A DNA stretch of 38,816 nucleotides from an uncultured Bacilli bacterium (GTDB lineage: Bacteria; Bacillota_I; Bacilli_A; RF39; UBA660): the NCBI GenBank assembly GCA_947629375.1, contig CANRDN010000019.1, positions 1-38,816 on the forward strand, written 5' to 3'. The notes under the pieces are model-generated. The model did not search any database, was not told the origin of the DNA, and worked only from the letters and a program-made list of their open reading frames with translations. This document shows, piece after piece, positions 1 through 24,057 of this stretch. The translations under genes and the position numbers were made by a program. Position 1 is the first letter of the stretch, and every line of letters begins with the position of its first letter.

Positions 1-1644
<1,644 letters not shown>

Positions 1645-1650
1645 TAAATT

Positions 1651-2004
1651 ATGAATATAAAATATAAAAAAATTGGAGATTATTTATTACCAAATTTGGT
1701 AGTAGATAATCAAAATAATAAACAAATTGGAAAGTATGGTTATTTAAGATTAAACTATATTAAACAAAATAAAAAGGCATTATATCAAACATTATTAATG
1801 AAAAATGAACTAATTAATCATCTTTTTTCAGTCAGTAATGAATGTGAAGAAAGGTTAAAAACTTTAATGGATAATTATATAAAAAATGATAATAGACTAT
1901 CTGAAAAAAATAAAGAAACTAATCAAATTGAATGGATAAAATTGATGAATAATTATAAGCTAATTGCTGAAGAAATTATTTTAAATGAGCTTGTCTATGT
2001 TTAA
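1651..2004 (+). CDS. TnpV-like transposon protein
   Basis: A 117-residue protein that matches my memory of the TnpV family (named from Tn4451) across its length. It has an N-terminal YKKIGDYLLPNL block, IGKYGYLRLNYIK, a central leucine-rich helix and the ending EEIILNELVYV. TnpV proteins are encoded next to large serine recombinases in Clostridia and other gut Bacillota; their biochemical role is not established. The gene starts 6 bases after the recombinase stop, with GAAAGGA in the end of the recombinase gene as ribosome binding site, so the two are probably cotranscribed. The recombinase-TnpV-relaxase order supports a Tn4451-like mobilisable element. Confidence 0.8.
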   Translation: MNIKYKKIGDYLLPNLVVDNQNNKQIGKYGYLRLNYIKQNKKALYQTLLMKNELINHLFSVSNECEERLKTLMDNYIKNDNRLSEKNKETNQIEWIKLMNNYKLIAEEIILNELVYV

Positions 2005-2071
2005 TTTTTCTCATAAGCGAGCAACGTGTCGGTACTCCCACCACATTATTTTGAAAGGCTAAACCTTAACT

Positions 2072-3376
2072 ATGGCAACAACATCAATTTGGAGTATTAA
2101 AAATAATTTAAAGCAATCTATAAACTATATCATCAATCCCGAAAAAACTATCAATGAAGATTATGGAAAAACAGAAAATTATAATTATCTTGAACTTAAT
2201 AAAGAATACAATTATAAGTTAGAAAAAACTCACTATGTAAGTTGTCTAAATTGTGATGAAGATGATCCATATAATGATATGATATTTATAAAAGATATTT
2301 TTGGCAAGAAAGATGGAGTTCTTGCCTATCATGGATATCAATCTTTTAAGGAAGGAGAAGTAACAGCAGATATTGCTCACGAAATTGGAGTCAAGTTTGC
2401 AGAAGAAATGTTTAAAGATTATGAAGTGGTTGTAGCAACTCATCAAAATACAAATCATATTCACAACCATTTCATAATCAACTCTGTTTCATTTAAGAAT
2501 GGAAAGAAATACAATAACAATAGAACAAATCTAGCAAAATTAAGACATATATCAGATTCTTTATGTGCAGAATATGGATTAAATGTTTTAGATGAAGATA
2601 TAGGCTATAAAAGTACCTTTAATCATAAAGTAATTGATAATGATTATTATAAAACTTTAAAAGAAGATTTAGATAATGTAATAAGTTATTCAGTTACTCT
2701 TAGACAAGTAATGGATAGAATGAAATTATTAGGATATAAAACTTATTCTCGTAATAATGTTATAACTATTTATAGGGATAATTGTGATAAAGTACGAATT
2801 GAAAAAGTATTTGGGAATGAATATTCAAAAGATAGAATAAATGAACGACTATATCAATCAAGACAAATTGTATTTAAACCTATATCACATAAATCTATAT
2901 TTGAAGAATATTCTAAAAATAACAAGACTCATAAAGGTATATATGGCTTATATTTATACTATTGTTATTTATTAGGAGTATTTCCAAAGAATCATCCGAA
3001 ACAATATCTTCCTTATTCTATAAGACAAGAAATAAAAAAGTTAGATGAATTTTCTGAACAAGTTAGATTTATGGCTAATAATAAAATTGAAACAATAGAA
3101 GATTTAGAAATCTTTTCTAAAAATAATTATGAAGAATATAGAAACCTTATGGGTAAAAGAGAAAATCTTTGGAAAAGATACCATAGAGCAAAAACTACCG
3201 AAAAACAATCTGAAATACTTTCTGAAATAAATGGTATTCAGCCTAAAATAAAAGAACTTCGTAAATATGATAACTATTGTAAAAATATTAAAAAACAATC
3301 TGAATCCATACAAGATAACATTAATAATTTTGATAAAAATATACAAAAAGAAAAAGACAATTCTAGGTCATTATGA
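2072..3376 (+). CDS. Relaxase / mobilisation nuclease
   Basis: A 434-residue DNA relaxase that would nick the element at its transfer origin and start conjugative transfer using a helper secretion system. The N-terminus (MATTSIWSIKNNLKQSINYI) matches the common start of Tn1549/CTn-type relaxases, with the likely nicking Tyr near residue 19. AYHGYQSFKEGEV follows near residue 85, and the histidine triad lies in HQNTNHIHNH near residue 125 (H-x-N-x-x-H-x-H type). The last third is Lys/Glu-rich and probably helical. The 67 bases before it, after tnpV, could hold oriT, but I cannot identify a nic site. The only ribosome-binding-site-like sequence (GAAAGG) is about 13 bases from the ATG, longer than usual; the conserved N-terminus still supports this start. 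No accessory MobC-type gene is visible, so the element is either a mobilisable type or a remnant. Confidence 0.9.
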   Translation: MATTSIWSIKNNLKQSINYIINPEKTINEDYGKTENYNYLELNKEYNYKLEKTHYVSCLNCDEDDPYNDMIFIKDIFGKKDGVLAYHGYQSFKEGEVTADIAHEIGVKFAEEMFKDYEVVVATHQNTNHIHNHFIINSVSFKNGKKYNNNRTNLAKLRHISDSLCAEYGLNVLDEDIGYKSTFNHKVIDNDYYKTLKEDLDNVISYSVTLRQVMDRMKLLGYKTYSRNNVITIYRDNCDKVRIEKVFGNEYSKDRINERLYQSRQIVFKPISHKSIFEEYSKNNKTHKGIYGLYLYYCYLLGVFPKNHPKQYLPYSIRQEIKKLDEFSEQVRFMANNKIETIEDLEIFSKNNYEEYRNLMGKRENLWKRYHRAKTTEKQSEILSEINGIQPKIKELRKYDNYCKNIKKQSESIQDNINNFDKNIQKEKDNSRSL

Positions 3377-3392
3377 CTTGAAATTGTCTTTT
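3352..3392. terminator. Bidirectional terminator between convergent genes
   Basis: AAAAGACAATT at 3352-3362 pairs with AATTGTCTTTT at 3382-3392, and an inner GTCAT/ATGAC stem lies between them. Both strands have A- or T-rich tails. It overlaps the end of the relaxase gene and abuts the stop of the minus-strand methylase gene, so one hairpin can serve both. Confidence 0.75.
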
Positions 3393-5028
3393 AATTTCTT
3401 TTTCCTCTATTATGTCTTCGTTGCACCATAAATTTCCATATTTTTCTAAATTCCAATACTGTTTCTTTTGGAATTTTTAAATAGTCAATCAAAATTTCTT
3501 TATCAATTATATCTAACAATTCTTCGATATCGTTCTTATTTCTAATTTTTTCATCTACTATTTTTAGAAGCTCGTTTGTTTTATTATCGGAAAGATTATC
3601 AATTTTAGGTAAAAATATATTTGATACTTCCTTTGGTAATACTTCTAAAACTCCACCACCATAACTTCTACCATTTAATTCAACATAAGCAAAAGTAATA
3701 CTATTATAATATGATAACAACACTTTATTTTTATTAACACCCTCATAAAAATTAATTCTGTGCATAGTGTCTGTAGATACTGCATTTATTTTATTCATAA
3801 CAAATTTAGGATAATTATTACTTCTACGAAGAAAAAATGCATCAGGAATCCAAATAGATGGAATAGAGTACCATTTATTTCTGATTTTACATTTATAGCC
3901 TTTATTAGCACCAATTTTTTCTCCATACTTTATATACTTTTGTTGTCTCTTACTTAATTGTATGAAATCAACATTTTCATCAAAATTTATTAGGTATGCT
4001 TTTACTCCTTTATCAACATTAAATTGCCAGTCTTTTTCGTCAAAAAACAAACCATGTGCTTGAGAACTCCTACCAATTAAAGGAATAGCAACACTATTTA
4101 AATCATATTTATCAACAGTTTCCTTATTAACTGAAAAATAATCATTATTACCAGTCGTAATGCCAACATTTATTAGAGCCACATCTTCGAACTTTTGAAA
4201 TTTATTATCGTGTTTAATACTATCAATAAGTGTATTTTGATATTCACTTAAGTAATATTTAGTCCATTTATTTCTTTCATTGATTAAATGATTATACTCT
4301 AATTTTTCTAATGAAAAATCATTTATGAGATCATCTAAATCTTTAAAAGAACAATTTGCAATATTACATTCTTTTATAGTGTTGTTTTTTTCGCCTATGA
4401 ATACAACAACTTCTTGTTCTGCATCATCAAAAACCAAATCATCAAATGAAATAATTGTAATTTTATTTAGCTCTCTTGATAAATAAGCACGCAAATCTTC
4501 TGCATATACTACTTGAAGTAATTCGGCAGGAATGACAAAACCAATTTTTCCATTATCTTTCAATAAATTTACACAAGCAACTAAGAAAAAAACCCAACTG
4601 TTTATCAATTTATTTGGTATCATTTTATTATCTAATAAGACTTTTGATTGTCTCTTTCGTTGCTTTTCAGTCAAATATTGGTATCTTATATATGGAGGAT
4701 TTCCTAAAATTAAATCATATTTTTCTTTTGTAGTTTGATAAAATTTATAAAAATCATCATTGTACAAATTAATGTTTTTATTATTTGCAATCAATTTAAC
4801 ACATTTGTCATATTCTTCTTTTACTATCTCAACAGCATCTACTTTTTTATATTTCTTATCTTTAGATATTTCTAAAATACTGCTTAAAAATACTCCATCA
4901 CCACAACTTGGTTCTAGTATTTCCAAATCCTCATCATATAATAAAGAAGTTATGAAATTAGCTAATTTTTCTGGAGTATAATACCCTCCACGTTCCTTTT
5001 TAAAGGATATATCCTTTTTTAATTTCAT
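3391..5028 (-). CDS. N6-adenine DNA methyltransferase (M.Eco57I-like)
   Basis: A 545-residue adenine-N6 DNA methyltransferase that would protect the host from the restriction enzyme encoded just before it. The SAM-binding motif I (LEPSCGDGVF) is at residues 38-47 and the catalytic NPPY motif IV at 110-113, the order of Eco57I-type gamma-class enzymes. The C-terminal half has the look of a target-recognition domain (IPSIWIPDAFFLRRS, GRSYGGGVLEVLP). The gene begins 4 bases after the stop of the type IIG gene, and its AAAGGAT ribosome binding site lies in that gene's last codons, so the pair forms one operon. From memory, the Eco57I system pairs a roughly 1000-residue enzyme with a separate methylase of about 544 residues, close to the sizes here. 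The recognition sequence cannot be read from the protein. Confidence 0.9.
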   Translation of the reverse strand: MKLKKDISFKKERGGYYTPEKLANFITSLLYDEDLEILEPSCGDGVFLSSILEISKDKKYKKVDAVEIVKEEYDKCVKLIANNKNINLYNDDFYKFYQTTKEKYDLILGNPPYIRYQYLTEKQRKRQSKVLLDNKMIPNKLINSWVFFLVACVNLLKDNGKIGFVIPAELLQVVYAEDLRAYLSRELNKITIISFDDLVFDDAEQEVVVFIGEKNNTIKECNIANCSFKDLDDLINDFSLEKLEYNHLINERNKWTKYYLSEYQNTLIDSIKHDNKFQKFEDVALINVGITTGNNDYFSVNKETVDKYDLNSVAIPLIGRSSQAHGLFFDEKDWQFNVDKGVKAYLINFDENVDFIQLSKRQQKYIKYGEKIGANKGYKCKIRNKWYSIPSIWIPDAFFLRRSNNYPKFVMNKINAVSTDTMHRINFYEGVNKNKVLLSYYNSITFAYVELNGRSYGGGVLEVLPKEVSNIFLPKIDNLSDNKTNELLKIVDEKIRNKNDIEELLDIIDKEILIDYLKIPKETVLEFRKIWKFMVQRRHNRGKRN

Positions 5029-5032
5029 AATT

Positions 5033-7996
5033 TTATCCTTTCATATCAATTAATTTTGTTATATTATTATTAATCTTTCTAATCAAATCTTCTTTTATTC
5101 TATTTGTTAGACTTATACTCTCTGAATTCTTGTTCTTAATTAATTCATCATTTAACTTATTAATTTTTATTACATCAGATACTATTTGATTATATATATT
5201 ATTTTCAATTTCATTTGAAAAATCAATATCAATTATTGGAAGTTTATTTAAAACCTGAGTTCCTCTAGAATAAAATCCTCCTTCAAAGTCGCTACCCATA
5301 CATTCCATAACATTAGTCATTAATGGATGACTTAAATATGCTTGAAGGAAAAATAAATTATATTTACTATTTTCATTAATTTTAATTCCACAATACCCAG
5401 CAGTTCCTCCACTTTGTATAACTAAATTATTATTATCATACATAAACATAGGTTCTTTTGACATTACACCAACAATTAACTTTTCTTGATCATTAAATTC
5501 AGTAAAAGCTTGAGTTCTACCAAATTGATACCAACTATCTTTAGTAGAATTTGGAACATCTCTTCCTTGTTTTTTCCCCGAAACTTGTTTTGGAACTATT
5601 TCATCATAAAAATCATTTACATATTCTTTGAATTTTTCATATTCATCTAATTTGATTAAATTTCCATTTTGATCATAAGGAAATATAATATATTTATCTG
5701 TCAATAATGGATCATAAGTCTTTACATTCTTTTCATTTTTTGTTGTCGGTTGAAAATATCTTTTTACAATTCCTCTTTCGACTTTATATATTTTATTTTC
5801 TTTTTCAAATTCAAGATAATCATCATCTATTGATTTTACTTCTTTGCCTTTTATTACATATAAATTATTTAAACTAGTTTGTACTCCATTAAATGGTGTA
5901 GCAACTTGTGAAAGAAATAATGAATTTGCAAATAACTTTTTTAAACTCGCCATTTTTTCTAAATCGGTTGAAAGAATCCAAATATCAGAATTTATTTCGT
6001 TACTATTTATTTTAACATTATTATCATTTATATTATTTAATTTCCACGCTTCATAATTTTGAATATAGTTATATTCAAAATTATTTGCTTTATTTTTATT
6101 AATTAATATTATACATGTATATGTTGTTTTATCTTCAAATATTTGTTGATAATTAAAATCTATTAATAATTCTAAATATTTATTTTTAGTAATTAATTCT
6201 CTAAGATTTTTACCTGCACCAATTTTCATAAATTTATTCGGTATAATATAACATAATTTACCATTTTTATTTAATAGATTAATCGCTCTCTCAATAAACA
6301 GAAAATATTTATCAAATTGCTTATAAGCTGTATAGTATTGTTTTTTATAAATTTCAACTTCCTCTTTGGATAATAAATTAATCATATCTTCTGTTTTAAC
6401 GTATGGTGGGTTACCAATTATCAAATCAAATTTAGAATCGTTATTTATGTATTTCCATGAAAAAGGTTTTAATTCCATATAATTATCAGTTTCTTCTGAA
6501 ATCATATCAAAATCAACTAACGAATTTCCATTGATAATGTTTAAATCCAAGGATGGTAATATTGGATCAACCTCTATAACAGATTCTTTGTTTTCATTTT
6601 CAAGCACTTTTAACAAAAGACTAAATTTAGCTACTTCAACAGCTTGATAATCTATGTCATTACCATATATACATGAAAGTAAAATATTCTTTTTTTCAAT
6701 ATATTTTAATTTATAAGAATTCGTATAAGTTTCTTCAATATAATCAAAACATTTATTTTCTTCATACCAACTTTCACAATAATTTATTAAATGCTCCAAC
6801 AAACATGTAAGAAAAATTCCTGAACCACAAGCAATATCTGCAAATTTCATTTGCTTAATTTCATCTGGTGTTTTATTTTTAATAACCTTATCAAGAGATT
6901 TTTCAGTCATATATTTTACAATATCATAAGGTGTTGTTACTATTGAACGATTCAAATTGTCCTTTTTTGTCTGTAGTTTAATAGAACCATTTTCTTCAAC
7001 CAGAGTTTCTGATAAAAATAATTCATATATTTCTCCAAGAATATCAGAACTTATAACAGTAAAATCATACGGACTTATCGGATAATATAAAGAATTTATC
7101 ATATTTTTTAAAACACTATTACTAAATATTTTTAATATTTCTTTTTCTTTGAAAATACCTGAATTATATCTTTTATCGGCCATATTAAATAACTTGCTTA
7201 ATTCGCTTTGAAGAGTATTTTCATCAAGGATAGATTTTTGCAAAGTTTTGTACAAAGGTAAATCTCTATCTTCACAAATTCTTAGGAAAATAACCTGATT
7301 AATTAAAGTCTGTATTTCCAAATTAATGTTTTTAAGATTTTTTTCTTTTTTATATAAGTAAGTTCCTAATTCTAATCTCCATTCATTTATTTGATTTAAA
7401 AATACATCATCTACATCTAATCCTAAACTGGTATTACTTTCGAATTTTTTATCAAATGTACCATCATAAACAGTTTCTCGTGATATTAATGAATATATTT
7501 CATCGTATTTATTCAAATAATCTGTATAATGATATCGACCAATTAAGTTGCTATTAGTATTATCATCATATTTAGGCATTAAAGTTGAATCGTAAATTAC
7601 TAAATCTTCAAAATTGGTTAATAACACAATTTTATGTTTTGCAGACCATCCATATCTTCTTGCTTGAAAACAGCAAGATTTTTCCACAAGTATATTTACA
7701 TTTGGTTTTTTTGCTTCAACAAAAAATACTGATTTTCCATTTAATGTCATCGTATAATCAGGTTTCCCCAAATCTTGTTCGTACGATTCAACCAAGACTT
7801 CCTTATATTGTGGCTTTTTTCCAGAATTATTCTGTACATCCCAACCAAAATACTCAAGTAATTTATCAATAAATTCTAATCTACATTCACTTTCATTAAA
7901 ATTTGAACTAATATAATGATCATGATTCTCAGAATATCTATCTATAAGAGATTTTAATTCTTCTTTTGCTTCTTCTTTACAAAATTGTATGCTCAT
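5033..7996 (-). CDS. Type IIG restriction-modification enzyme (Eco57I-like)
   Basis: A single-chain restriction enzyme with an adenine methylase. The N-terminus is a PD-(D/E)xK nuclease: ECRLEF near residue 40, PDYTM near 79 and VEAK at about 93-96. A helical connector follows, then methylase motif I DIACGSG near 387 and NPPY near 528. The last third is a TaqI/Eco57I-type specificity region (GVQTSLNNLY, GRTQAF, GGFYSRGTQVLNKLP). At about 987 residues it is as long as Eco57I. I place the start at the ATG at 7996 because GGAGG (minus strand) lies 5 bases upstream; an in-frame ATG 12 bases further out (8008) overlaps that ribosome binding site. It is transcribed with the downstream methylase gene and divergently from the HerA system. 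No control (C) protein gene is seen nearby; palindromes around its promoter suggest regulation. Confidence 0.9.
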   Translation of the reverse strand: MSIQFCKEEAKEELKSLIDRYSENHDHYISSNFNESECRLEFIDKLLEYFGWDVQNNSGKKPQYKEVLVESYEQDLGKPDYTMTLNGKSVFFVEAKKPNVNILVEKSCCFQARRYGWSAKHKIVLLTNFEDLVIYDSTLMPKYDDNTNSNLIGRYHYTDYLNKYDEIYSLISRETVYDGTFDKKFESNTSLGLDVDDVFLNQINEWRLELGTYLYKKEKNLKNINLEIQTLINQVIFLRICEDRDLPLYKTLQKSILDENTLQSELSKLFNMADKRYNSGIFKEKEILKIFSNSVLKNMINSLYYPISPYDFTVISSDILGEIYELFLSETLVEENGSIKLQTKKDNLNRSIVTTPYDIVKYMTEKSLDKVIKNKTPDEIKQMKFADIACGSGIFLTCLLEHLINYCESWYEENKCFDYIEETYTNSYKLKYIEKKNILLSCIYGNDIDYQAVEVAKFSLLLKVLENENKESVIEVDPILPSLDLNIINGNSLVDFDMISEETDNYMELKPFSWKYINNDSKFDLIIGNPPYVKTEDMINLLSKEEVEIYKKQYYTAYKQFDKYFLFIERAINLLNKNGKLCYIIPNKFMKIGAGKNLRELITKNKYLELLIDFNYQQIFEDKTTYTCIILINKNKANNFEYNYIQNYEAWKLNNINDNNVKINSNEINSDIWILSTDLEKMASLKKLFANSLFLSQVATPFNGVQTSLNNLYVIKGKEVKSIDDDYLEFEKENKIYKVERGIVKRYFQPTTKNEKNVKTYDPLLTDKYIIFPYDQNGNLIKLDEYEKFKEYVNDFYDEIVPKQVSGKKQGRDVPNSTKDSWYQFGRTQAFTEFNDQEKLIVGVMSKEPMFMYDNNNLVIQSGGTAGYCGIKINENSKYNLFFLQAYLSHPLMTNVMECMGSDFEGGFYSRGTQVLNKLPIIDIDFSNEIENNIYNQIVSDVIKINKLNDELIKNKNSESISLTNRIKEDLIRKINNNITKLIDMKG

Positions 7997-8014
7997 TTTT
8001 ACCTCCATTTACAC

Positions 8015-8062
8015 ATACTGCAGTATTTACTAAATTCATTATAACATATAATACTGCAGTAT
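8015..8062. promoter_or_regulatory. Pair of 12-bp palindromes, candidate operators
   Basis: ATACTGCAGTAT, a perfect palindrome, occurs at 8015-8026 and again at 8051-8062. With their flanking bases the two copies are 14-bp reverse complements of each other. They lie 36 bp apart, on either side of the -10 box of the restriction operon: one in the -35/spacer region, the other just past the expected transcript start. This is the usual layout for operators bound by a dimeric repressor. The regulator is not identified in the window. Confidence 0.55.
8038..8046 (-). promoter_or_regulatory. Extended -10 promoter of the restriction operon
   Basis: On the minus strand TGTTATAAT (TGnTATAAT) gives an extended -10 box with TATAAT at 8038-8043. 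The transcript should begin near 8031, about 35 bases before the ATG at 7996. There is no good -35 hexamer; one palindrome covers that place. Confidence 0.6.
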
Positions 8063-8124
8063 GAATATCTTTTTTGTGTTTTCATCATTTTTTTACATAA
8101 TATCAATAACTTGATAGCTTTGTG

Positions 8125-8133
8125 TGCTATAAT
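8125..8133 (+). promoter_or_regulatory. Extended -10 promoter of the HerA-nuclease operon
   Basis: TGCTATAAT is an extended -10 box (TATAAT at 8128-8133). TTGATA at 8111-8116 is only 11 bases upstream, too close to be a normal -35. An AGGAG ribosome binding site at 8150-8154 and the ATG at 8166 follow. Confidence 0.55.
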
Positions 8134-8165
8134 ATTTTTAGTAAGAAACAGGAGAATTTAATATT

Positions 8166-9353
8166 ATGAAAAAAAGGCAAGCAAATAATACTATAAAAGG
8201 TTATTTTTATCAGTTTAATAAAACAATTTATGAAATTTTATCTCAAAATAATAAAACAGCAAAAATAGTTGTTGAAGGTATTGAGGATATTGATATAAAA
8301 ACAGATAATACATGTAGTACTATTCAATGCAAGTATTATTCGAAACAAACATATAATCACTCAGTTATAAAAGAAGCAATAATTTATATGTTCAGACACT
8401 TTTCAAATAACAAATCTAGTAATTTAAGATATAAAATATATGCTAATTTTAAAGACGGACAATCAAAATTACCAAGTTCTATGCAATTAAAATTTTTTAA
8501 AGATAACTTCTTAACTTACAAAGAAAAAGGAATAATTCACAAAGTATATGAAGAACTTAACTTAAACGATAATGAAGTAAAAGAATTTATGAAAAAAATC
8601 GATATAGATATAAATGCTGTTGATTACGATACTCTCGAAAGCGATGTTATGGAATTATTAAAAAAAGAACTGAATAGTTCCAACGAATTAATAGATTTAT
8701 ATTTTCTTAAAGCAGGAAGCATTATAAAAAGTATTGCTATACAAGAAACAGAAGATGAGAGAACTATAACCAAAAAACAGTTTATTGATAAACTGATGGA
8801 TGTTAATATTATATTAGACAAATGGTATATATCAAAAATTAGTAAAGAAAAATATTGTGGTTTAATAAGAAAAAAGTATTTTTCAACTCATAATATATCA
8901 CCTTACGAAAGGTTTTTTATTATTGAATGCCCTGAAAATACCAAAATATCAACATTAAAGCAAATAACAAATGTAATTTCTAATAAATGGTCAAAATTGT
9001 CTAAAAGAACTCCACAGCCTTTTTGTCCATATATTATTTTCTCTAATTTAAATGAAGATGAATTATTACTGCTAAAACAAAGTTTATATAATGATAATTT
9101 TAAATTTATTGATGGTTATGATTTTAAAGGTTCTGAATTTTCTGTAGAAAGTATAATTCAAGAAGCTAATTATAAAAATAAGATTCAAATTAAAATATTT
9201 GATATAGAAGATATTGATAATGTATTAAAGAAAATAAGTAAAACAAAAGAAATCTATCAATTTTATATAAACAAAAAGATTTATGACAACAAGAATGAAA
9301 ATCATGTTGACATTAAAATAGATGACTTAGATGACATTTTAAATATGATTTGA
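8166..9353 (+). CDS. DUF4297/Cap4-like nuclease of a HerA defence system
   Basis: A 395-residue protein whose N-terminus looks like the DUF4297/Cap4 dsDNA endonuclease fold of the PD-(D/E)xK superfamily. It has GYFYQ at residues 12-16, an acidic patch VEGIEDID at 36-43 and the Q-x-K motif in IQCK at 53-56. The remaining 300 residues are unrecognised and may be an assembly or sensing region. The next gene, 14 bases downstream, encodes a HerA-type ATPase. DUF4297-HerA pairs are known antiphage systems in which nuclease and hexameric ATPase form one complex, so DNA degradation on phage infection is the likely role. The Q-x-K motif and the HerA partner make the call fairly firm; the exact DUF assignment rests on motif recall. 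Confidence 0.75.
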   Translation: MKKRQANNTIKGYFYQFNKTIYEILSQNNKTAKIVVEGIEDIDIKTDNTCSTIQCKYYSKQTYNHSVIKEAIIYMFRHFSNNKSSNLRYKIYANFKDGQSKLPSSMQLKFFKDNFLTYKEKGIIHKVYEELNLNDNEVKEFMKKIDIDINAVDYDTLESDVMELLKKELNSSNELIDLYFLKAGSIIKSIAIQETEDERTITKKQFIDKLMDVNIILDKWYISKISKEKYCGLIRKKYFSTHNISPYERFFIIECPENTKISTLKQITNVISNKWSKLSKRTPQPFCPYIIFSNLNEDELLLLKQSLYNDNFKFIDGYDFKGSEFSVESIIQEANYKNKIQIKIFDIEDIDNVLKKISKTKEIYQFYINKKIYDNKNENHVDIKIDDLDDILNMI

Positions 9354-9367
9354 GGAGGATAAATTAT

Positions 9368-11011
9368 ATGGAAGAAAATAAAATAATTGCTGAAGTTATT
9401 TCAGTATTACCAAATAAGATTAAAATATCTGTAGATGATATAAATGATTTTAAAATTGCAGAAGAAAAATTGAAAATTGGTTCATATATTGAAGTTAGTG
9501 ACAACGATAATTGCAAATTAATGGCAATTATAGAAAACTTTTCTATAGAACTAAAAGGAAATGAATCTAGTGAAAGAAGATACATTTTAGAAGCAAGTCC
9601 ACTAGGAATAATAAGTAATGGAAGTTTTGAGCGAGGTGGCGATAACATTTCTATTCCACCAAAAGATGTAAAACCAGCTAAAAAAGAAGATATAATAAAA
9701 ATCTTTTCCTCCTCTACAAAAAGTGATGACAAAAAATTTATTTTTTCAACTCTTTCTTCTGATCGTTCAATTCCTGTACCAGTAGATGGAAATAAGTTTT
9801 TTAACAGACACATTGCAATCGTAGGATCAACAGGTTCTGGTAAATCTAATTCTGTTGCTAAAATATTGCAAAATGCTATATCATCCAAAAATAGTAATTA
9901 CTCTGGATTAAATAATTCACATATAATTATATTTGATATTCACTCAGAATATAAGTCTGCATTTCCTAAAGCTAATTATATTGATATAGATAATTTAATT
10001 TTGCCATACTGGTTGCTAAACAGTGATGAATTACAAGAATTATTTATTGATACAGAAGCAAATGATCATAATCAAAGAAATGTATTTAAAGAAGCAGTAG
10101 TTAATAGTAAGAAATCACATTTTGATGGAGACGAAATTCAGAAAAATAAAATTCATTTTGATTCACCATTATTTTTTGAAATCAATGAAATTTTAAACGA
10201 TGTAAAAGAAAAAAATGAGGAAATGGTGCCAGGTGCTAGAGACATGAAAGCAGGTCCATTAAACGGTAAATTAACAAACTTTGTTAGTAGATTAGAAAAT
10301 AAAATTAATGATAAAAGATTAGAATTTTTATTAGGAGAAAAATCCAAAAACATAACTTTTAACGAAACATTAAAAAATTTGATTGGATATAACAATGACA
10401 ATTCTAATATTACAATAATCGATTTAAGTGGAGTTCCTTTTGATGTATTGAATATCACAGTTTCGCTTATTTCAAGAATATTATTTGAATATGGATATTA
10501 TTATAAAAAAATACGATTTTCTCAAAACCCTACTGAAAACATAAATAATGATGTTCCATTACTACTTGTTTATGAGGAAGCTCACAAATATGCACCAAAT
10601 AATGATTTGTCAAAATATAAAGCTTCAAAACAATCAATAGAAAGAATTGCTAAAGAAGGACGTAAGTATGGTATAACACTACTACTAGCAAGTCAAAGGC
10701 CTTCTGAAATTTCTGAAACAATTTTTTCACAATGTAATAATTTTATTGCAATGAGATTAACTAATCCAAATGATCAAAATTATGTAAAACGATTATTACC
10801 AGATACATTTGGTGAACTTATAAATAAAATGCCTTCTCTTAAGGTGGGAGAAGCATTACTTATTGGCGATGCTACCATTATTCCATCGATTGTACAAATT
10901 GATGAATGTGAAGAAAAGCCGTCATCAAATGATATACCATATTTTGACTTATGGAAAGAAGAATGGAAAAAACTAGACATAGAAAAAATTTTAACTGAAT
11001 GGGTAAAATAA
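9368..11011 (+). CDS. HerA-like ATPase/translocase of a defence system
   Basis: A HerA/DUF87-type ring ATPase that would partner the upstream nuclease. An N-terminal beta-barrel (HAS-like) region of about 140 residues is followed by Walker A GSTGSGKS at 153-160, IFDIHSEY (about 185-195), Walker B with catalytic Glu in LLLVYEEAHKYAP near residue 401, and the sensor-like SQRPSEISETIFSQC and RLTNPNDQNYV segments. The start is the ATG at 9368: GGAGG at 9354-9358 is 9 bases upstream. An in-frame ATG at 9350 lies before that site and inside the previous gene. The gene follows the nuclease gene within one operon. A different effector (for example Sir2) is used in other HerA systems; here the effector is the DUF4297-like nuclease. 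Confidence 0.88.
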   Translation: MEENKIIAEVISVLPNKIKISVDDINDFKIAEEKLKIGSYIEVSDNDNCKLMAIIENFSIELKGNESSERRYILEASPLGIISNGSFERGGDNISIPPKDVKPAKKEDIIKIFSSSTKSDDKKFIFSTLSSDRSIPVPVDGNKFFNRHIAIVGSTGSGKSNSVAKILQNAISSKNSNYSGLNNSHIIIFDIHSEYKSAFPKANYIDIDNLILPYWLLNSDELQELFIDTEANDHNQRNVFKEAVVNSKKSHFDGDEIQKNKIHFDSPLFFEINEILNDVKEKNEEMVPGARDMKAGPLNGKLTNFVSRLENKINDKRLEFLLGEKSKNITFNETLKNLIGYNNDNSNITIIDLSGVPFDVLNITVSLISRILFEYGYYYKKIRFSQNPTENINNDVPLLLVYEEAHKYAPNNDLSKYKASKQSIERIAKEGRKYGITLLLASQRPSEISETIFSQCNNFIAMRLTNPNDQNYVKRLLPDTFGELINKMPSLKVGEALLIGDATIIPSIVQIDECEEKPSSNDIPYFDLWKEEWKKLDIEKILTEWVK

Positions 11012-11150
11012 ATACTGCAAAAGTTAAAAAGTATGTTACAATTTATTTAGTTGATTTAATCAATCTTGGGAGTATAATTTTTCGAATATAAGTAAAGTTA
11101 TCGCTCCATTGACGAATCTGTTCGAACTTTTTCGGACATTTAAATATATT

Positions 11151-11177
11151 TCATCTCTATCTAGAGATGATTTTTTT
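11151..11177 (+). terminator. Terminator of the HerA operon
   Basis: TCATCTCT (11151-11158) pairs with AGAGATGA (11163-11170) around a 4-base loop, followed by seven T. The 139 bases between the HerA stop and this hairpin hold no gene. They contain CGAATCTGTTCG and the palindrome GTTCGAAC (11120-11127), which I cannot assign; the right end of the mobile element could lie here. Confidence 0.8.
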
Positions 11178-11183
11178 ATTTAA

Positions 11184-11236
11184 ATAAAAAATCCCCCAGG
11201 ATATTTTGATACACTTGTCAAAATTCCTAGGGGTTA
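11184..11236 (-). terminator. Terminator of the UDG-like gene
   Basis: On the minus strand a CCCCTAGGA / TCCTGGGGG stem, extended by ATTTTGA / TCAAAAT, is followed by ATTTTTTATTT. It lies about 70 bases past the stop of the minus-strand gene ending at 11307. Its core resembles the hairpin at 24791-24840. Confidence 0.75.
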
Positions 11237-11306
11237 ACTATTTCGTCATAAACAAAATAATTAATAAAAGTGGAAATTTAATTATTAGCATTTATTTTCA
11301 ATATAT

Positions 11307-12005
11307 TCATACTGTTGTTTTCTTGCTTTCATTTTCCAAAAACTCTCGATTTTGTATTGGTAAATCTTTCATTATCCATTTAATATCTTCAATAGATTTA
11401 TCAATGTTAAATCTTCCGTTACCTACTGGATAATAAACAGAATAAAAGTTGTATGTTTTCCCATTTATTTCCTTCTCAAAAAGTTGTTTTCTTACTTTAG
11501 AAACCGATATTTTTTCATCTAATACAATAGAGCTTACTTGATTACCAAATAAAAAAATTACTTTAGGATTAATTATTTCAAATTCTTTTTCTAACAAATA
11601 TAAATATTTTTTATAAACATTATCAGGCAATTCTCTAGCATCTACTTGTGTACATTTTCCTAAATTTGTAATAAAGTATTTATGCTTTTCTACATCTTTA
11701 TAAACTTCCTTGGCAAAGTCTTCTGACCAATCTGTACCTTTTATATCCTTTATTTTTCTATAAATATCTTTATCCATCAAATTTAGTTCAAAAAATAAAT
11801 CCCATATATTTTTAGTTCCTATCCAAGGAGATTTAATTCCTTTCCAATCTTTAGAAGATGCTATATTTCGCCCAGTAGGATTCATAAAGACAAAACATAT
11901 ATCAGGATTATTTATACAACCGCCATTATATATTGAATCTAATTCTTTAGCACCATATTTTAATTGAAGTTTATCATATTCAATTTTTAAATCTTCTAAC
12001 TGCAT
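11307..12005 (-). CDS. Uracil-DNA glycosylase superfamily protein
   Basis: A 232-residue protein with the layout of the uracil-DNA glycosylase fold: FVFMNPTGRN near residues 38-47 (first active-site loop), FITNLGKC near 111-118, PKVIFLFGNQ near 147-156 (central strand), and YYPVGNGRFN near 195-204 in the place of the H-P-S/N loop. It would remove damaged bases from DNA or act on a related substrate. The conserved His of the last motif is not obvious, so activity is uncertain. The start has a GGTGAT ribosome binding site 3 bases before the ATG. It stands alone, with its own terminator at 11184-11236, between the defence genes and the SipW operon, and could be cargo or chromosomal. Confidence 0.7.
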   Translation of the reverse strand: MQLEDLKIEYDKLQLKYGAKELDSIYNGGCINNPDICFVFMNPTGRNIASSKDWKGIKSPWIGTKNIWDLFFELNLMDKDIYRKIKDIKGTDWSEDFAKEVYKDVEKHKYFITNLGKCTQVDARELPDNVYKKYLYLLEKEFEIINPKVIFLFGNQVSSIVLDEKISVSKVRKQLFEKEINGKTYNFYSVYYPVGNGRFNIDKSIEDIKWIMKDLPIQNREFLENESKKTTV

Positions 12006-14989: not shown

Positions 14990-15601
14990 ATGGAAAATTT
15001 AACTTATGTAACTGGGAATTATGGTAAATATGTTTCTGTAAAGGAAAAGTTTGAAAATGCTGGTATTATGATTGATTATTTTGATTGTGATTTAGAAGAG
15101 CCTGACGTTAATGATATAAAATTTATATCAAAAGAAAAGGCTAGACAAGCTTTTGAAAAATTAGGAACACCTGTCTTTGTTGCTGATTCTGGATTTTACA
15201 TAGAAGATTATCCTAAAAATCCTGGGTATCCTGGTGCATTCGTAAAAAGAAGTGGAGTGTCATCTAATATTACAGGTCTATTAGAAACAATGAAACAAGT
15301 TAAAAATAGAAATTGTTGTTTCCTTGATTGCCTAACATTTTTTGATGGTAAAGATTATTTTCAATTTTTTGGAGTTAGCAAAGGTACTCTTTCAAATGAA
15401 ATAAGAGGAGAACAAAATAAAAGGGCAAAATCAAATTTATGGTTTGTATTCATTCCAATGAACTGTAGTAAAACTTTAGCTGAAATGTCAAATGAAGAAA
15501 GAAATAATAGGGATGATAATAGAACAAGTGCCACAGATGAATTTATTAAATGGTATAAAAAAGAATATAAAAGTGAAAAAAAACTAACAAAAAATTTATA
15601 A
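14990..15601 (+). CDS. rdgB: RdgB/HAM1-like non-canonical purine NTP pyrophosphatase
   Basis: A 203-residue HAM1-family enzyme that hydrolyses dITP, XTP and similar nucleotides to monophosphates and pyrophosphate, keeping deaminated purines out of DNA and RNA. The phosphate-binding N-terminus YVTGNYGKY (residues 5-13) corresponds to the usual TxNxxK motif. VADSGFYIE (about 63-71) holds the catalytic Asp, PGYPGAFVKR follows, and the C-terminal part has KTLAEMSNEERN. The length is normal. The usual SHR near the C-terminus is not exact (NNRDDNRTSA), so this is a divergent member. It is a single gene with its own promoter, ahead of the histidine-leader region. Confidence 0.82.
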   Translation: MENLTYVTGNYGKYVSVKEKFENAGIMIDYFDCDLEEPDVNDIKFISKEKARQAFEKLGTPVFVADSGFYIEDYPKNPGYPGAFVKRSGVSSNITGLLETMKQVKNRNCCFLDCLTFFDGKDYFQFFGVSKGTLSNEIRGEQNKRAKSNLWFVFIPMNCSKTLAEMSNEERNNRDDNRTSATDEFIKWYKKEYKSEKKLTKNL

Positions 15602-15635
15602 ATATTAAAATTTTATTGTGATGTTTAAAATTTAC

Positions 15636-15674
15636 TTGACACAAATAAAGAATTATGCAAATATATTGTATAAG
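15636..15674 (+). promoter_or_regulatory. Probable promoter of the histidine-leader transcript
   Basis: A perfect TTGACA at 15636-15641 is followed by AT-rich candidates for the -10 box (TATATT at 15662-15667, or TATAAG at 15669-15674). Spacing is 20 or more bases, longer than ideal, so the exact -10 is uncertain. Confidence 0.4.
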
Positions 15675-15690
15675 AAAAAGAGGAATAATT

Positions 15691-15744
15691 ATGAATTTAA
15701 AAATATTTTTAAATCAATTACATCATCATCGTAGGAGCTTGTAA
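15691..15744 (+). CDS. Histidine-rich leader peptide (17 residues)
   Basis: A short reading frame for MNLKIFLNQLHHHRRSL. It has an AGAGG ribosome binding site 7 bases before the ATG, three tandem CAT (His) codons at 15721-15729, then CGT AGG (Arg Arg), Ser, Leu and TAA. It lies between a TTGACA promoter element and an intrinsic terminator, all upstream of the DapF-fold racemase gene at 16055. A short translated ORF with tandem codons for one amino acid before a terminator is the hallmark of transcription attenuation; the sensed amino acid would be histidine, possibly arginine as well. It is not a known Rfam element that I can name in this phylum. Confidence 0.72.
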   Translation: MNLKIFLNQLHHHRRSL

Positions 15745-15806
15745 CTATTGCTAAAAAGCGTAGGTACAGGCTAAATTTGCTGTGCCTACGATAGTTTAAA
15801 AATATT
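15743..15806 (+). promoter_or_regulatory. Leader RNA hairpin of the histidine attenuator
   Basis: CGTAGGTACAG (15759-15769) pairs with CTGTGCCTACG (15780-15790), 11 bp with one G-U. The stem can extend by AACTAT/ATAGTT (15743-15748 with 15791-15796). In addition AATATTTTTAAA inside the leader ORF (15702-15713) is fully complementary to 15795-15806. The 3' arm CCTAC-ATAGT (15785-15795) can instead pair with ACTAT-GTAGG (15827-15838), the 5' arm of the terminator, giving an antiterminator. The two pairings exclude each other. How a stalled ribosome shifts the balance is not clear from the layout. Confidence 0.6.
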
Positions 15807-15809
15807 AAG

Positions 15810-15886
15810 AATAGATATACTAAAAGACTATTTGTAGGAAGAAAAAATTCTATAAATAGTCTTTTTTTGTATATCTATTTTTTTAA
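15810..15886 (+). terminator. Attenuator terminator before the racemase gene
   Basis: An 18-bp stem (15822-15839 with 15848-15865, containing AGACTATTT/AAATAGTCT) is followed by a T run. It is enclosed by a second stem, AATAGATATAC (15810-15820) with GTATATCTATT (15869-15879), and another T run. It is the strongest hairpin in the region and lies 170 bases before the racemase start. Confidence 0.8.
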
Positions 15887-15917
15887 ATTAAGAATTAAAA
15901 ATTTATAGTTATTCTAA

Positions 15918-16025
15918 AAGGAAGGTGGTTTAAAAAATGATTTAGATTAAAAATGCAATATGTCATTTAGGGGATATGATATAGAAAATGTATCAAAAAA
16001 ATTAAAAAATTATAAAAAAAAATAA
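15918..16025 (+). other. Start-stop codon pair and 21-codon ORF ahead of the racemase
   Basis: A very strong ribosome binding site (AAGGAAGGTGG, 15918-15928) is followed at normal spacing by ATG ATT TAG (15937-15945), a two-codon frame. At 15960-16025 a 21-codon frame encodes MSFRGYDIENVSKKLKNY plus a Lys tail; SFRGYD-x-x-x-V resembles the N-terminal motif of DivIVA proteins. It has no good ribosome binding site of its own. It could be the remnant of a lost gene or a second translated leader element. Confidence 0.3.
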
Positions 16026-16054
16026 ATTAAAACAGAAAAATTGGAGGGATTAAA

Positions 16055-16852
16055 ATGAACAAAATTAAATATTTAATATATAAGCCAGCAGGTAACGATA
16101 CAGCATTAGTGTATGGTACTCAATACAATGAAACAATGAAGAAGAGGATTAATGATGCAATTATGAAGAGACATACAAATGTTGAACAAGTTGGTTTTAT
16201 TAATGATAATGGAAAAAAAGAACTACAAATGGCAGGAGGAGAATTTTGTGGAAATGCAACTAGAAGTGCTGCATATAATTATTTAAATGGAAAGCAAGGA
16301 AAAATACAAATATGCGTAAATTCAAAAGATAAAATTATAGCAGGTGTTGATAAGGATAAGAAAGCTTGGTGTGAAATACCATTACCTGAAAAAAGCAACA
16401 TTATTACAGAGATAGAAAAGGGAATATTTATTGTTGATTTAAAGGGAATCACTATTGTTGTTATTCAAGATTTTCAAGCGCAAAAGTACTTATGCAACAA
16501 AGATAAATTGAAGCAAGTTGGAAGAAAATTGATCGATGATTATAATCTTGTAGATAATTCAGCAGTTGGTGTAATGTTTTGTGAAAATAAAAAAGAAAAA
16601 ATAAAGATAAATCCAATTGTTTGGGTAAAGAGCATAGATACATTATTTTATGAAACTGCTTGTGGTAGTGGAAGTATGGCAGTATGTATAGTTGAGTCCT
16701 ATCTTAAAAAGCAAAAAGAGAAAATTGACATAATACAGCCATCAGGTTTAATAATTACAGCAAGTGTAGATTATAAGAATGATAGATTTCAACAATCAAT
16801 AATTTCAGGAAATATTGAAAATGATGGAATAGTATATTCTTTAGATTTATAG
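16055..16852 (+). CDS. CntK-like (DapF-fold) amino-acid racemase, probable histidine racemase
   Basis: A 265-residue PLP-independent racemase of the diaminopimelate-epimerase fold. Both catalytic cysteines are present: MAGGEFCGNATRS near residues 64-76 and ETACGSGSM near 205-213. They would deprotonate and reprotonate the alpha carbon from opposite faces. PAGNDTALVYG near the N-terminus replaces the DapF GLGNDF motif. EQVGFI and GGEFCGNAT match my memory of S. aureus CntK, the histidine racemase of staphylopine synthesis, better than DapF. A GGAGGG ribosome binding site precedes the ATG. Upstream lies a leader peptide with three His codons and a terminator, which independently points to histidine. 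No cntL/cntM-like genes are adjacent, so a role in making or salvaging D-histidine on its own is inferred. DapF or another amino-acid racemase is the alternative. Confidence 0.75.
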   Translation: MNKIKYLIYKPAGNDTALVYGTQYNETMKKRINDAIMKRHTNVEQVGFINDNGKKELQMAGGEFCGNATRSAAYNYLNGKQGKIQICVNSKDKIIAGVDKDKKAWCEIPLPEKSNIITEIEKGIFIVDLKGITIVVIQDFQAQKYLCNKDKLKQVGRKLIDDYNLVDNSAVGVMFCENKKEKIKINPIVWVKSIDTLFYETACGSGSMAVCIVESYLKKQKEKIDIIQPSGLIITASVDYKNDRFQQSIISGNIENDGIVYSLDL

Positions 16853-22194: not shown

Positions 22195-22200
22195 TAGTAA

Positions 22201-22468
22201 GATGACTGTGAAAAAGAAAAGTATAATTGAAAATTCTGAAAAAGAGAACTGGATAGTGGTGAAATTCTAGTAGAATTTAGATTAGAAAGAACACTTTGGA
22301 GTTGCTTACCAAAACCTTTTAAGGGAGTAGATTAAGCCGATTGAACACCGTTAACTGTTCTAGACTTAATAGAGTCGAATAAAGAGATTATAAAGTAATA
22401 TAATAAATTGGGTGGCACCGCGGATTACCAGACTTCGTCCCAAGAAAGGGATTAAGTCTGGTTTTTTA
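22201..22468 (+). promoter_or_regulatory. T-box riboswitch, tRNA-Asn specific
   Basis: This is a T-box leader that senses uncharged tRNA and prevents termination when the amino acid is short. The conserved T-box TGGGTGGCACCGCGG is at 22409-22423. The terminator is CCAGACTT (22428-22435) with AAGTCTGG (22454-22461) and six T. A hairpin GAACA/TGTTC with a CCGTTAAC loop (22343-22360) fits the usual stem III. Aligning the 3' side of stem I with the well-known glyQS leader (GAAA-specifier-A...TTGAG) places the specifier codon AAC at 22290-22292, followed by A. AAC is an Asn codon, in agreement with the asnB gene downstream. Confidence 0.93.
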
Positions 22469-22482
22469 TTGGAGGAGAGAAT

Positions 22483-24057
22483 ATGTGTAGTTTTATTGTT
22501 TATACTAAAGAAAACATTAGTAAAGAAGAGTTTAAAAAAAATCTAAAAAAATTAGAACACCGTGGTCCAGATATGACCCAAATAAAAGAGTATCACGGAA
22601 TGTGGGGATTTAATCGTTTAGCCATTATGGGTCCTGATGAAAGAGGAATGCAACCCTTTCAAAAAGAAGATAAGATGGTCGTATGTAATGGTGAATTGTA
22701 TGGCTTTCGCAAAACAAAGAAAGAACTTCAAAAGAAGGGATATCAGTTTATTTCAGAGAGTGATTGTGAACTTTTATTACCAATTTATTTAGAAGAAAAA
22801 TTAGAAATGTTTAAGCATTTAGATGCTGAATTTGCCTGTGTTTTATTTGATGGTAAAGATTTTATTGCAGCAAGAGACCCAATAGGAATTAGGCCAATGT
22901 TTTATGGTTTTTCGAAAGTAAGTCACGATATTGCTTTTGCATCAGAAGCTAAAGGTCTTATTGGATTTTGTGATGAAATACATCCATTTCCACCAGGATA
23001 TTATTACAATAAGGGAGAGTTTATTCAGTATGCTGATGTAACAAAAGTTAAAAAAGTATCAAAGGATGACTTGGATACCATTGGTAAAAAAATAAATAAA
23101 TTATTAACAGAGGGTGTCAAGAAAAGATTGGATTCTGATACTCCAATTGGCTTTTTGTTAAGTGGTGGACTTGATTCAAGCTTGGTATGTGCAATAGCAT
23201 CTAAAAAATTAAAAAAACCAATTAGAACTTTTGCAATCGGAATGAATACTGACGCAATTGATTTAAAATACGCTAAAGAAGTGGCAGATTACATTCATAG
23301 TGATCACACGGAAGTAATAATTGATAAAGATGATGTCTTAAATGCTTTAGAAAGCGTTATAAAGGAACTTGAAACTTGGGATATTACAACTATTCGTGCT
23401 TCAATAGGAATGCATCTATTATGTAAATGGATTCACGAAAATACAAACTTAAAAGTAATTATGACAGGTGAAGTAAGTGACGAATTGTTTGGGTATAAAT
23501 ACACTGATTTTGCACCAAATAAAGAAGAATTCCAAAAGGAAAGTGAGAAACGAATTAGAGAACTTTATATGTATGATGTTCTAAGAGCAGATCGTTGTAT
23601 TTCAGAAAATTCACTAGAGGGGAGAGTACCTTTTGCTGATTTAGCATTTGTAAAGTATGTTATGAGTATTGATCCTGCTAAAAAAATGAATATCTACAAT
23701 AAAGGTAAATATCTATTGCGTCACGCTTTTGAACAAGATTATTTACCGCAAGATATTTTATATCGTGAGAAAGCAGCTTTTTCTGATGCAGTTGGACATT
23801 CTATGGTCGATTACTTAAAAAGTTATGCTGAGAAAAAATATACAGATGAAGAATTTGAGGAAAAAATAAAGAAATACAAAGAACCACGACCATTTACTAA
23901 AGAATCACTTTTATATCGTGAAATTTTTGAAAAATATTATAAAGGTCATAGTGATTGGATTATTGATTACTGGATGCCAAATAAAAATTGGGAAGGATGT
24001 AACGTAAATGATCCATCAGCAAGAGTCCTTTCTAACTATGGAGAAAGTGGAAAGTAG
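22483..24057 (+). CDS. asnB: Asparagine synthetase B, glutamine-hydrolysing
   Basis: A 524-residue enzyme that makes asparagine from aspartate, ATP and glutamine. The start MCSF leaves Cys2 as the N-terminal nucleophile of the class II glutaminase domain. HRGPDMT (residues 26-32), NGELYGF and SESDCELLLP follow, then ARDPIGIRPMFYGF. The synthetase domain has the pyrophosphate loop LSGGLDSS near residues 226-233, MTGEVSDELFGYKY near 327 and LEGRVPFAD near 380. This matches the bacterial AsnB type, complete in length. A GGAGGAGAG ribosome binding site precedes the ATG. Expression should rise when tRNA-Asn is uncharged, through the T-box just upstream. Confidence 0.96.
   Translation: MCSFIVYTKENISKEEFKKNLKKLEHRGPDMTQIKEYHGMWGFNRLAIMGPDERGMQPFQKEDKMVVCNGELYGFRKTKKELQKKGYQFISESDCELLLPIYLEEKLEMFKHLDAEFACVLFDGKDFIAARDPIGIRPMFYGFSKVSHDIAFASEAKGLIGFCDEIHPFPPGYYYNKGEFIQYADVTKVKKVSKDDLDTIGKKINKLLTEGVKKRLDSDTPIGFLLSGGLDSSLVCAIASKKLKKPIRTFAIGMNTDAIDLKYAKEVADYIHSDHTEVIIDKDDVLNALESVIKELETWDITTIRASIGMHLLCKWIHENTNLKVIMTGEVSDELFGYKYTDFAPNKEEFQKESEKRIRELYMYDVLRADRCISENSLEGRVPFADLAFVKYVMSIDPAKKMNIYNKGKYLLRHAFEQDYLPQDILYREKAAFSDAVGHSMVDYLKSYAEKKYTDEEFEEKIKKYKEPRPFTKESLLYREIFEKYYKGHSDWIIDYWMPNKNWEGCNVNDPSARVLSNYGESGK

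Follow-up and report, generated by a model that had tools for sequence, protein, structure and literature searches.

Why should a gene for an amino-acid racemase be preceded by a short open reading frame (ORF) with three consecutive histidine codons? This arrangement lies on contig CANRDN010000019.1 (assembly GCA_947629375.1) of an uncultured Bacilli bacterium from group UBA660 of RF39 (host genome G000, 1.87 Mb, 95.6% complete), and the whole stretch of 38,816 nucleotides analysed is referred to here as the window. We estimate with a probability of about 0.72 that the locus encodes a ribosome-mediated attenuator that senses charged tRNA-His and controls a histidine racemase, switching it on during histidine starvation, likely for the salvage of D-histidine. 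A sequence-only reading had named two independent clues to histidine, the codons of the leader and the subfamily of the enzyme, and both hold.

The predicted leader ORF comprises 17 sense codons and a UAA stop (15742-15744), with a GAGGA ribosome binding site (RBS) just upstream, and is found with its three tandem histidine codons where the sequence-only reading had placed it (Table 1). It is probably transcribed from a promoter with a -10 element near 15659-15667. In a scan of both strands of ~800 kb of related loci for short ORFs with an RBS and a downstream terminator, HHH occurred in 15 ORFs and the runner-up residue run, LLL, in five, indicating that HHH leaders are present beyond chance; of the 19 HH matches, 18 lie ahead of either a racemase operon or some other histidine-related gene. 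The 211-nt leader folds with -62.3 kcal/mol, compared to -30.9 +/- 3.5 kcal/mol in shuffled sequences (z = -8.9), and its terminator (15822-15865, 18 pairs) is the sole terminator-like site in 3 kb, with 0.3 expected. Three sets of pairings exclude each other, namely A2:B and B:C, B:C and C:D, and C:D and D:E. For B:C, 95.9% of the cells in 16 leaders are paired and five pairs changed on both sides, a level reached by none of 500 shuffles, with slid controls far lower. The proposed mutually exclusive pairings and the intrinsic terminator are thus borne out by folding and covariation. Since A2 is misplaced when divergent leaders are aligned with MAFFT, A2:B was assessed in each sequence separately and not by column counts. 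The A2:B pairing encloses a small covarying hairpin (15750-15759), with the variants GCU/AGC, GCAUU/AAUGC, GCAU/AUGC, and UGCU/AGCA among relatives.

Table 1. Positions of the predicted leader, attenuator, and racemase features in the window.
Feature	Positions	Strand	Basis and remarks
Leader promoter, -35-like hexamer TTGACA	15636..15641	+	Sequence; TTGAC(A/G) likewise placed in L005, L007, L029, L036, L051, L070, and L011
RBS of the leader peptide, AGAGGA	15679..15684	+	Sequence; kept in relatives
Leader peptide ORF, MNLKIFLNQLHHHRRSL followed by stop	15691..15744	+	Conserved in L005, L007, L026, L029, L036, L051, and L070
Three tandem His codons (CAT x3), predicted stall site	15721..15729	+	Invariant in the seven closest leaders
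Segment A1, CGUAGG	15730..15735	+	Minimum-energy fold; can pair with C; hidden by a ribosome that stalls on the His codons
Segment A2, AGCUUGUAACUAU	15736..15748	+	Pairs with B (15760-15772); under a ribosome at the stop codon
Segment B	15759..15772	+	15759-15769 with C or 15760-15772 with A2, mutually exclusive
Segment C	15780..15797	+	15780-15790 with B; 15785-15797 with D, forming the antiterminator
Intrinsic terminator	15809..15878	+	Core stem 15822-15865, then T-run; lower stem of 15809-15820 with 15867-15878
Segment D, terminator 5' arm, sequestrable by C	15825..15838	+	Folding; E is the 3' arm of the terminator
Faint hisS relic between attenuator and racemase	15943..15993	+	75% identity over 52 bases to internal hisS of L007, E 0.009; weak alone
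RBS of the racemase, GGAGG	16043..16047	+	Sequence
CntK/HisR-family histidine racemase, 265 aa	16055..16852	+	Profiles and fold; predicted catalytic Cys65, Cys203; Glu44, Glu63, Glu200

The same leader anatomy recurs in relatives (loci with L numbers; of 542 racemase relatives, 80 were kept), even where the sequence has almost wholly changed, and the histidine codons and alternative stems upstream of the racemase, whose conservation had been suggested as a check, are kept in many of them. Close relatives share the peptide end HHH(R/C)RSL, and all leaders beyond the seven closest have two or three histidine codons. Divergent leaders keep only the plan, as in MKFKSKNINKVHHHF (L011), MNSAIFLNHFHHHC (L020), MKDIRLLNEAHHHIKPVSLQ (L012), MLKFLINTNWHHRRSA (L029), MNNLYTRQHHHYNLHLLIRH (L055), and MYNYNLSSLHHHVHR (Lactococcus, L038); a version of this leader-racemase system is found in two cultured species, Lactococcus taiwanensis and L. 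hircilactis. Segment A1 is missing from divergent leaders (L011) and is therefore probably dispensable. An A1:C pairing that would cause superattenuation without translation is supported by the full fold; this candidate was dropped, as A2:B and C:D are preferred before arm E is made even in ribosome-free folds, and the missing A1 also counters it.

In the proposed mechanism, RNA polymerase would start near 15670, with a ribosome trailing on the leader ORF. When histidyl-tRNA is scarce, the ribosome would stall with the first or second histidine codon in its A site and cover the transcript only to about A1, so that A2 could fold onto B, leaving C free to pair with D, thereby sequestering the terminator's 5' arm and allowing read-through. 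With ample histidyl-tRNA, the ribosome would reach the stop codon and cover A2, B would pair with C, and D would be free to form the terminator with E, ending transcription. The racemase would thus be made upon histidine starvation, its likely job being the conversion of D-histidine to L-histidine for tRNA charging in a histidine auxotroph. To model this switch, each leader was folded to just before arm E, with the bases under the ribosome forced to be single-stranded. With the A site at the first histidine codon (ribosome edge +13), the probability of C:D was 0.72-0.99 in all 11 leaders modelled in detail, and it was still 0.61-0.99 at the second codon (edge +16). It dropped to 0.01-0.39 with the ribosome at the stop codon (edge +13), where C pairs with the upstream B. 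In a shuffled-spacer control, the effect was exceeded in at most 10 of 100 shuffles for most type-I leaders. As a stall at the first histidine codon gives C:D and a ribosome at the stop codon gives B:C, low levels of charged tRNA-His are predicted to represent the ON state. The switch logic, which the sequence-only reading had left unresolved, can thus be resolved by folding, with low histidine leading to the antiterminator; we infer both the stalling and the direction in which the switch works in living cells. Three leaders were excluded as evidence, namely L036 and L014, for which automatic terminator detection failed, and L010, for which it chose a wrong stem.

The enzyme is best read, from its sequence and predicted structure, as a histidine racemase, in line with the earlier description of a DapF-fold racemase with motifs resembling those of CntK. 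Its NCBIfam profile matches are NF033599 (His_racem_CntK, 2e-25), NF052224 (Fusobacterium HisR, 6e-25), and DapF (2e-7). The curated cut-offs were missed (89.8 of 300 bits for NF033599 and 88.5 of 400 bits for NF052224), indicating a distant relative rather than a member of the same equivalog; the cut-off for DapF (TIGR00652) was not reached either (30.6 bits vs. 114.65). The closest solved structures by sequence are HisR (9CR6/9CR1) and CntK (6L4L/6JIS), and with an AlphaFold model (pLDDT, the predicted local distance difference test score, of 94.3) the nine best Foldseek matches in the PDB were all CntK or HisR (E 1e-18 to 7e-16), with DapF at 1e-11. Across 34 relatives, Fusobacterium and Cetobacterium among them, no variation was seen at N14, T16, E44-Q45-V46-G47-F48, G61-G62-E63-F64-C65, E200, or C203. 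C65, C203, E44, E63, and E200 align with C67, C209, E49, E65, and E206 of HisR, which have been discussed as catalytic or imidazole-binding (PMC11602996), and all residues proposed for histidine binding or catalysis in HisR and CntK (PMC11602996) are present.

That the gene instead encodes an ordinary diaminopimelate epimerase, or an enzyme for another amino acid, with a histidine leader inherited from a lost hisS gene, appears improbable. The protein has the DapF fold and is the sole DapF match in the host genome, and a hisS relic between leader and racemase, clear in L005 and faint in the window, implies that the leader did not evolve for the racemase alone. Still, relatives with 81-82% identity coexist with a true DapF in three genomes (G146, G147, and G148), and a true, separate DapF is found in 14 of 20 racemase genomes. 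The signatures EQVGF, GGEFC, and YETAC are those of HisR and CntK, a long branch parts the racemase family from DapF in the tree, and the racemase ORF stayed open and conserved after hisS decayed. Gene context also argues against this alternative, as the racemase was joined to HisS twice and lies downstream of hutUG in Cetobacterium. The two joins are single ORFs with opposite orders, racemase::HisS (L011:4965-7121) and HisS::racemase (L036:3711-5774), and are two independent fusions in uncultured Clostridia. The Cetobacterium gene order hutU-hutG-racemase is a context for D- to L-histidine conversion. On plasmid p4 of Cetobacterium somerae (L107), a gene annotated as 'diaminopimelate epimerase' lies directly downstream of urocanate hydratase and hutG; it is probably a misannotated histidine racemase of an operon for D-histidine catabolism.

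The preferred reading of a starvation-induced histidine racemase draws further support from the company of the leader. Nearly all HHH leaders head racemase operons, with hisS, hisZG, dipeptidases, and an ABC (ATP-binding cassette) transporter as frequent partners. A covariance model placed the leader before hisZ-hisG in L009, L010, L014, G146:C17, and L111 (= G813), before hisS or hisS-racemase-vanX in L007, L012, L036, L051, and L070, and before a VanX-like dipeptidase followed by the racemase in L020; with strict filters, its search of 391 genomes from the class of L007 yielded only four further leaders. By peptide and layout, L017 has a leader before an Xaa-His dipeptidase (cluster c18, assigned by TIGR01893 via its L029 member) followed by the racemase, and HHH leaders head operons of an amino-acid ABC transporter and the racemase in Lactococcus and in one member of the Clostridiales from a termite. 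Fusion ORFs of a VanX-like D,D-dipeptidase and HisG lie downstream of hisS and the racemase in L027 (5885-7759) and L034 (5800-7566). These neighbours point to the uptake, release, charging, or breakdown of histidine; wherever it is L-histidine that is consumed, the racemase would have to run from D to L. Of the two roles that had been offered, salvage and regulated production of D-histidine, salvage fits far better, since the same leader heads hisS, hisZG, Xaa-His dipeptidase, and transporter genes. We infer that salvage of D-histidine into L-histidine upon starvation is the most likely role, with both the substrate and the direction of use deduced from family and context.

Variants of these operons were also observed. 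In L009 (3236-9923), L010 (335-7057), and L014 (628-7917), the leader-controlled cluster reads hisZ-hisG-(racemase::GNAT or racemase+GNAT)-hisIE-hisS-VanX-like-unnamed protein; by eye, the last protein resembles the folds of formylglycine-generating enzymes, and neither Pfam nor NCBIfam gave a match for it. The histidine pathway in these three genomes is partial, as hisD was not found and there were no convincing candidates for hisA or hisF. The his biosynthesis operon of G146 (C17:7003-10904) has its own attenuator but is apparently decaying, with a TAG within hisZ and hisG spread over two frames, and no hisD was found in the G146 genome. The gene order is conserved among L018, L019, L022, and L023, where a leaderless racemase gene lies just downstream of a gene with a phosphoglycerate-kinase-like end.

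Several observations weigh against a starvation-ON switch for salvage. The full-length transcript, once equilibrated, adopts the terminator fold in every case, and the antiterminator would therefore have to prevail kinetically, ahead of the synthesis of arm E. C:D is likewise favoured before E in ribosome-free folds (0.70-0.99), and no superattenuation is therefore predicted. No clear switch was obtained with automatic settings for L017, L038, L076, and L109, which have late stops or other tails, and approximately one third of the close racemase loci lack a histidine leader (e.g. L013, L015, L019, and L023). In Fusobacterium nucleatum, which takes up both D- and L-histidine, D-histidine neither rescued nor altered a hisR mutant (PMC11602996), and we therefore do not claim a salvage role for Fusobacterium. 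Lastly, a stall at the third histidine codon (H1+19) brings the ribosome edge to A2, which is then no longer freed in most leaders, favouring B:C on the terminator side. This last point would suit the reverse logic, in which an excess of histidine turns the racemase on to supply D-histidine or drain L-histidine; such an outcome is possible for the series A2:B, B:C, C:D, D:E if the stalled ribosome covers A2, and CntK does run from L to D for staphylopine (PMC11602996). We nevertheless regard this logic as unlikely. The stall is expected at the first starved codon, where A2 stays uncovered in all 11 leaders, and the same leaders head hisZG, hisS, and transporter genes, which are needed upon starvation. 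Moreover, L016 and L037 (HHVW...), whose different, classical 1:2, 2:3, 3:4 layout was read by eye, also give an ON state at low histidine. Activation at high histidine had been considered first, given the even number of stems, and was rejected from the calculated reach of the ribosome edge and from the presence of hisZG and hisS behind such leaders.

The weakest alternative, that D-histidine is made for a metallophore, a modified peptidoglycan, or a peptide and that histidine control exists only since histidine is consumed, has a precedent in the product of CntK, could enlist the VanX-like D,D-dipeptidase and GNAT genes that adjoin or are fused to the racemase in relatives, and might be linked to the effect of metal depletion on the growth comparison of F. 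nucleatum hisR (PMC11602996), but it is very unlikely, as no opine-zincophore genes were found among the window ORFs checked, the production of D-histidine during histidine starvation would be wasteful, and Xaa-His dipeptidase, transporters, and hisS represent salvage and charging functions.

A starvation-induced salvage enzyme would suit its host, a gut bacterium that is most likely a histidine auxotroph, since a genome search gave no match to hisG or hisD; a hisS gene is present elsewhere in the genome. The contig also encodes a trigger factor that shares 74-82% identity with those of ten same-genus genomes, indicating that the contig belongs to the host, and bin contamination was rejected. 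No racemase match at E 1e-8 was found in the other genomes searched from the same genus or family (4 of 146 genomes overall), and the leader motif is present in one of 395 genomes of the class and missing from the 394 others. The nearest proteins among the matches listed, with 81-82% identity, are from metagenome-assembled genomes of uncultured rabbit-gut Clostridia. With both leader and racemase rare in the host group and the nearest proteins clostridial, vertical inheritance was rejected, and the pair was probably gained horizontally, judging from these sequence comparisons. Searches of viral contigs and phages gave no match, and plasmid matches were restricted to replicons of Fusobacterium, Cetobacterium, Acetoanaerobium, and Vescimonas with <60% identity. 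Within the window, positions 1-12005 are a likely mobile region by ORF content, with serine-recombinase-like, relaxase-like, and two N6-methylase-like ORFs and a HerA-like ATPase, as read from the sequence. The leader of L007 is followed by hisS, racemase, and vanX in this order, whereas in the sister locus L005 only 5', internal, and 3' pieces of hisS separate the leader from the racemase. The faint relic in the window sits where L005 keeps these pieces, and vanX is gone; the locus is thus probably a stripped remnant of a leader-hisS-racemase-vanX arrangement.

More broadly, we tentatively suggest, at somewhat less than even odds, a histidine-starvation regulon of gut Firmicutes in which such attenuators control the import of D- and L-histidine, D,D- and Xaa-His dipeptidases, the racemase, and histidyl-tRNA synthetase, so that D-histidine and D-histidine peptides feed the protein synthesis of auxotrophs, with the window carrying a horizontally acquired, stripped remnant. 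The purpose of HisR was called unclear by the authors of the F. nucleatum study (PMC11602996). For cofactor-independent histidine racemases that do not serve staphylopine synthesis, the leader, the HisS fusions, and the salvage neighbours suggest a role in supplying histidine from D-histidine. Racemases would join the targets of leader-peptide attenuation, and a route for gut auxotrophs to use D-amino acids would be revealed. A histidine leader would also serve as a regulatory marker for 'diaminopimelate epimerase' genes that are in fact histidine racemases. As versions occur in the cultured L. taiwanensis and L. hircilactis, the system is testable.

Among known systems, the Proteobacterial histidine operon leader (RF00514) likewise uses a stall at tandem histidine codons to choose between terminator and antiterminator. 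It has seven such codons, in contrast to the three found here, and precedes other genes. RF00514 gave no match at the gathering score, nor at E values up to 5 (15600-16060), and no Rfam family matches the leader. A T-box (RF00230, 100.8 bits), which has no match at the leader, is the only element in the window to pass the gathering threshold; this single T-box (22199-22445) lies directly upstream of an asparagine synthase-like gene (22483-24057, named by sequence reading). Among Firmicutes, predicted histidine leaders precede the hisZ and hisS* genes of bacilli (Naville and Gautheret 2010, PMC2965389), and others head his operons in Erysipelotrichales, Peptostreptococcaceae/Lutispora, and the B. 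cereus group (Ashniev et al. 2022, PMC9413887). By description, the leader described here shares with them a short ORF with histidine codons, an intrinsic terminator, an antiterminator, and activation at low histidine, and some of its relatives have the same targets, hisZG and hisS. Unlike in those leaders, the first or only target here is a histidine racemase, and the word 'racemase' does not occur in PMC9413887.

With HisR of F. nucleatum (PDB 9CR1, 9CR6; PMC11602996), the enzyme shares family, fold, active-site equivalents, and the lack of linkage to staphylopine genes, but it is only ~30% identical, and HisR is encoded in an orphan operon without a histidine leader in the 400 bases upstream (L104). 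S. aureus CntK (PDB 6JIS, 6JIW, 6L4L) gave the best Foldseek match (1.4e-18) and shares the EQVGF motif, but adjoins cntLM and serves staphylopine synthesis. The claim that no staphylopine genes accompany the racemase is upheld within the 38.8-kb window, where none were found among the ORFs checked (CntL was not searched for); in the genome, a search for opine dehydrogenase (PF10100) gave no match but matched no control genome either, so absence there is not proven. The open-access literature yielded nothing relevant for racemase, leader peptide, and attenuation combined. The sequence-only reading had considered such an attenuator undescribed for a racemase; the type of switch is already known from his operons and hisS* of Firmicutes, whereas the racemase as its target, together with a regulon for D-histidine salvage, looks new.
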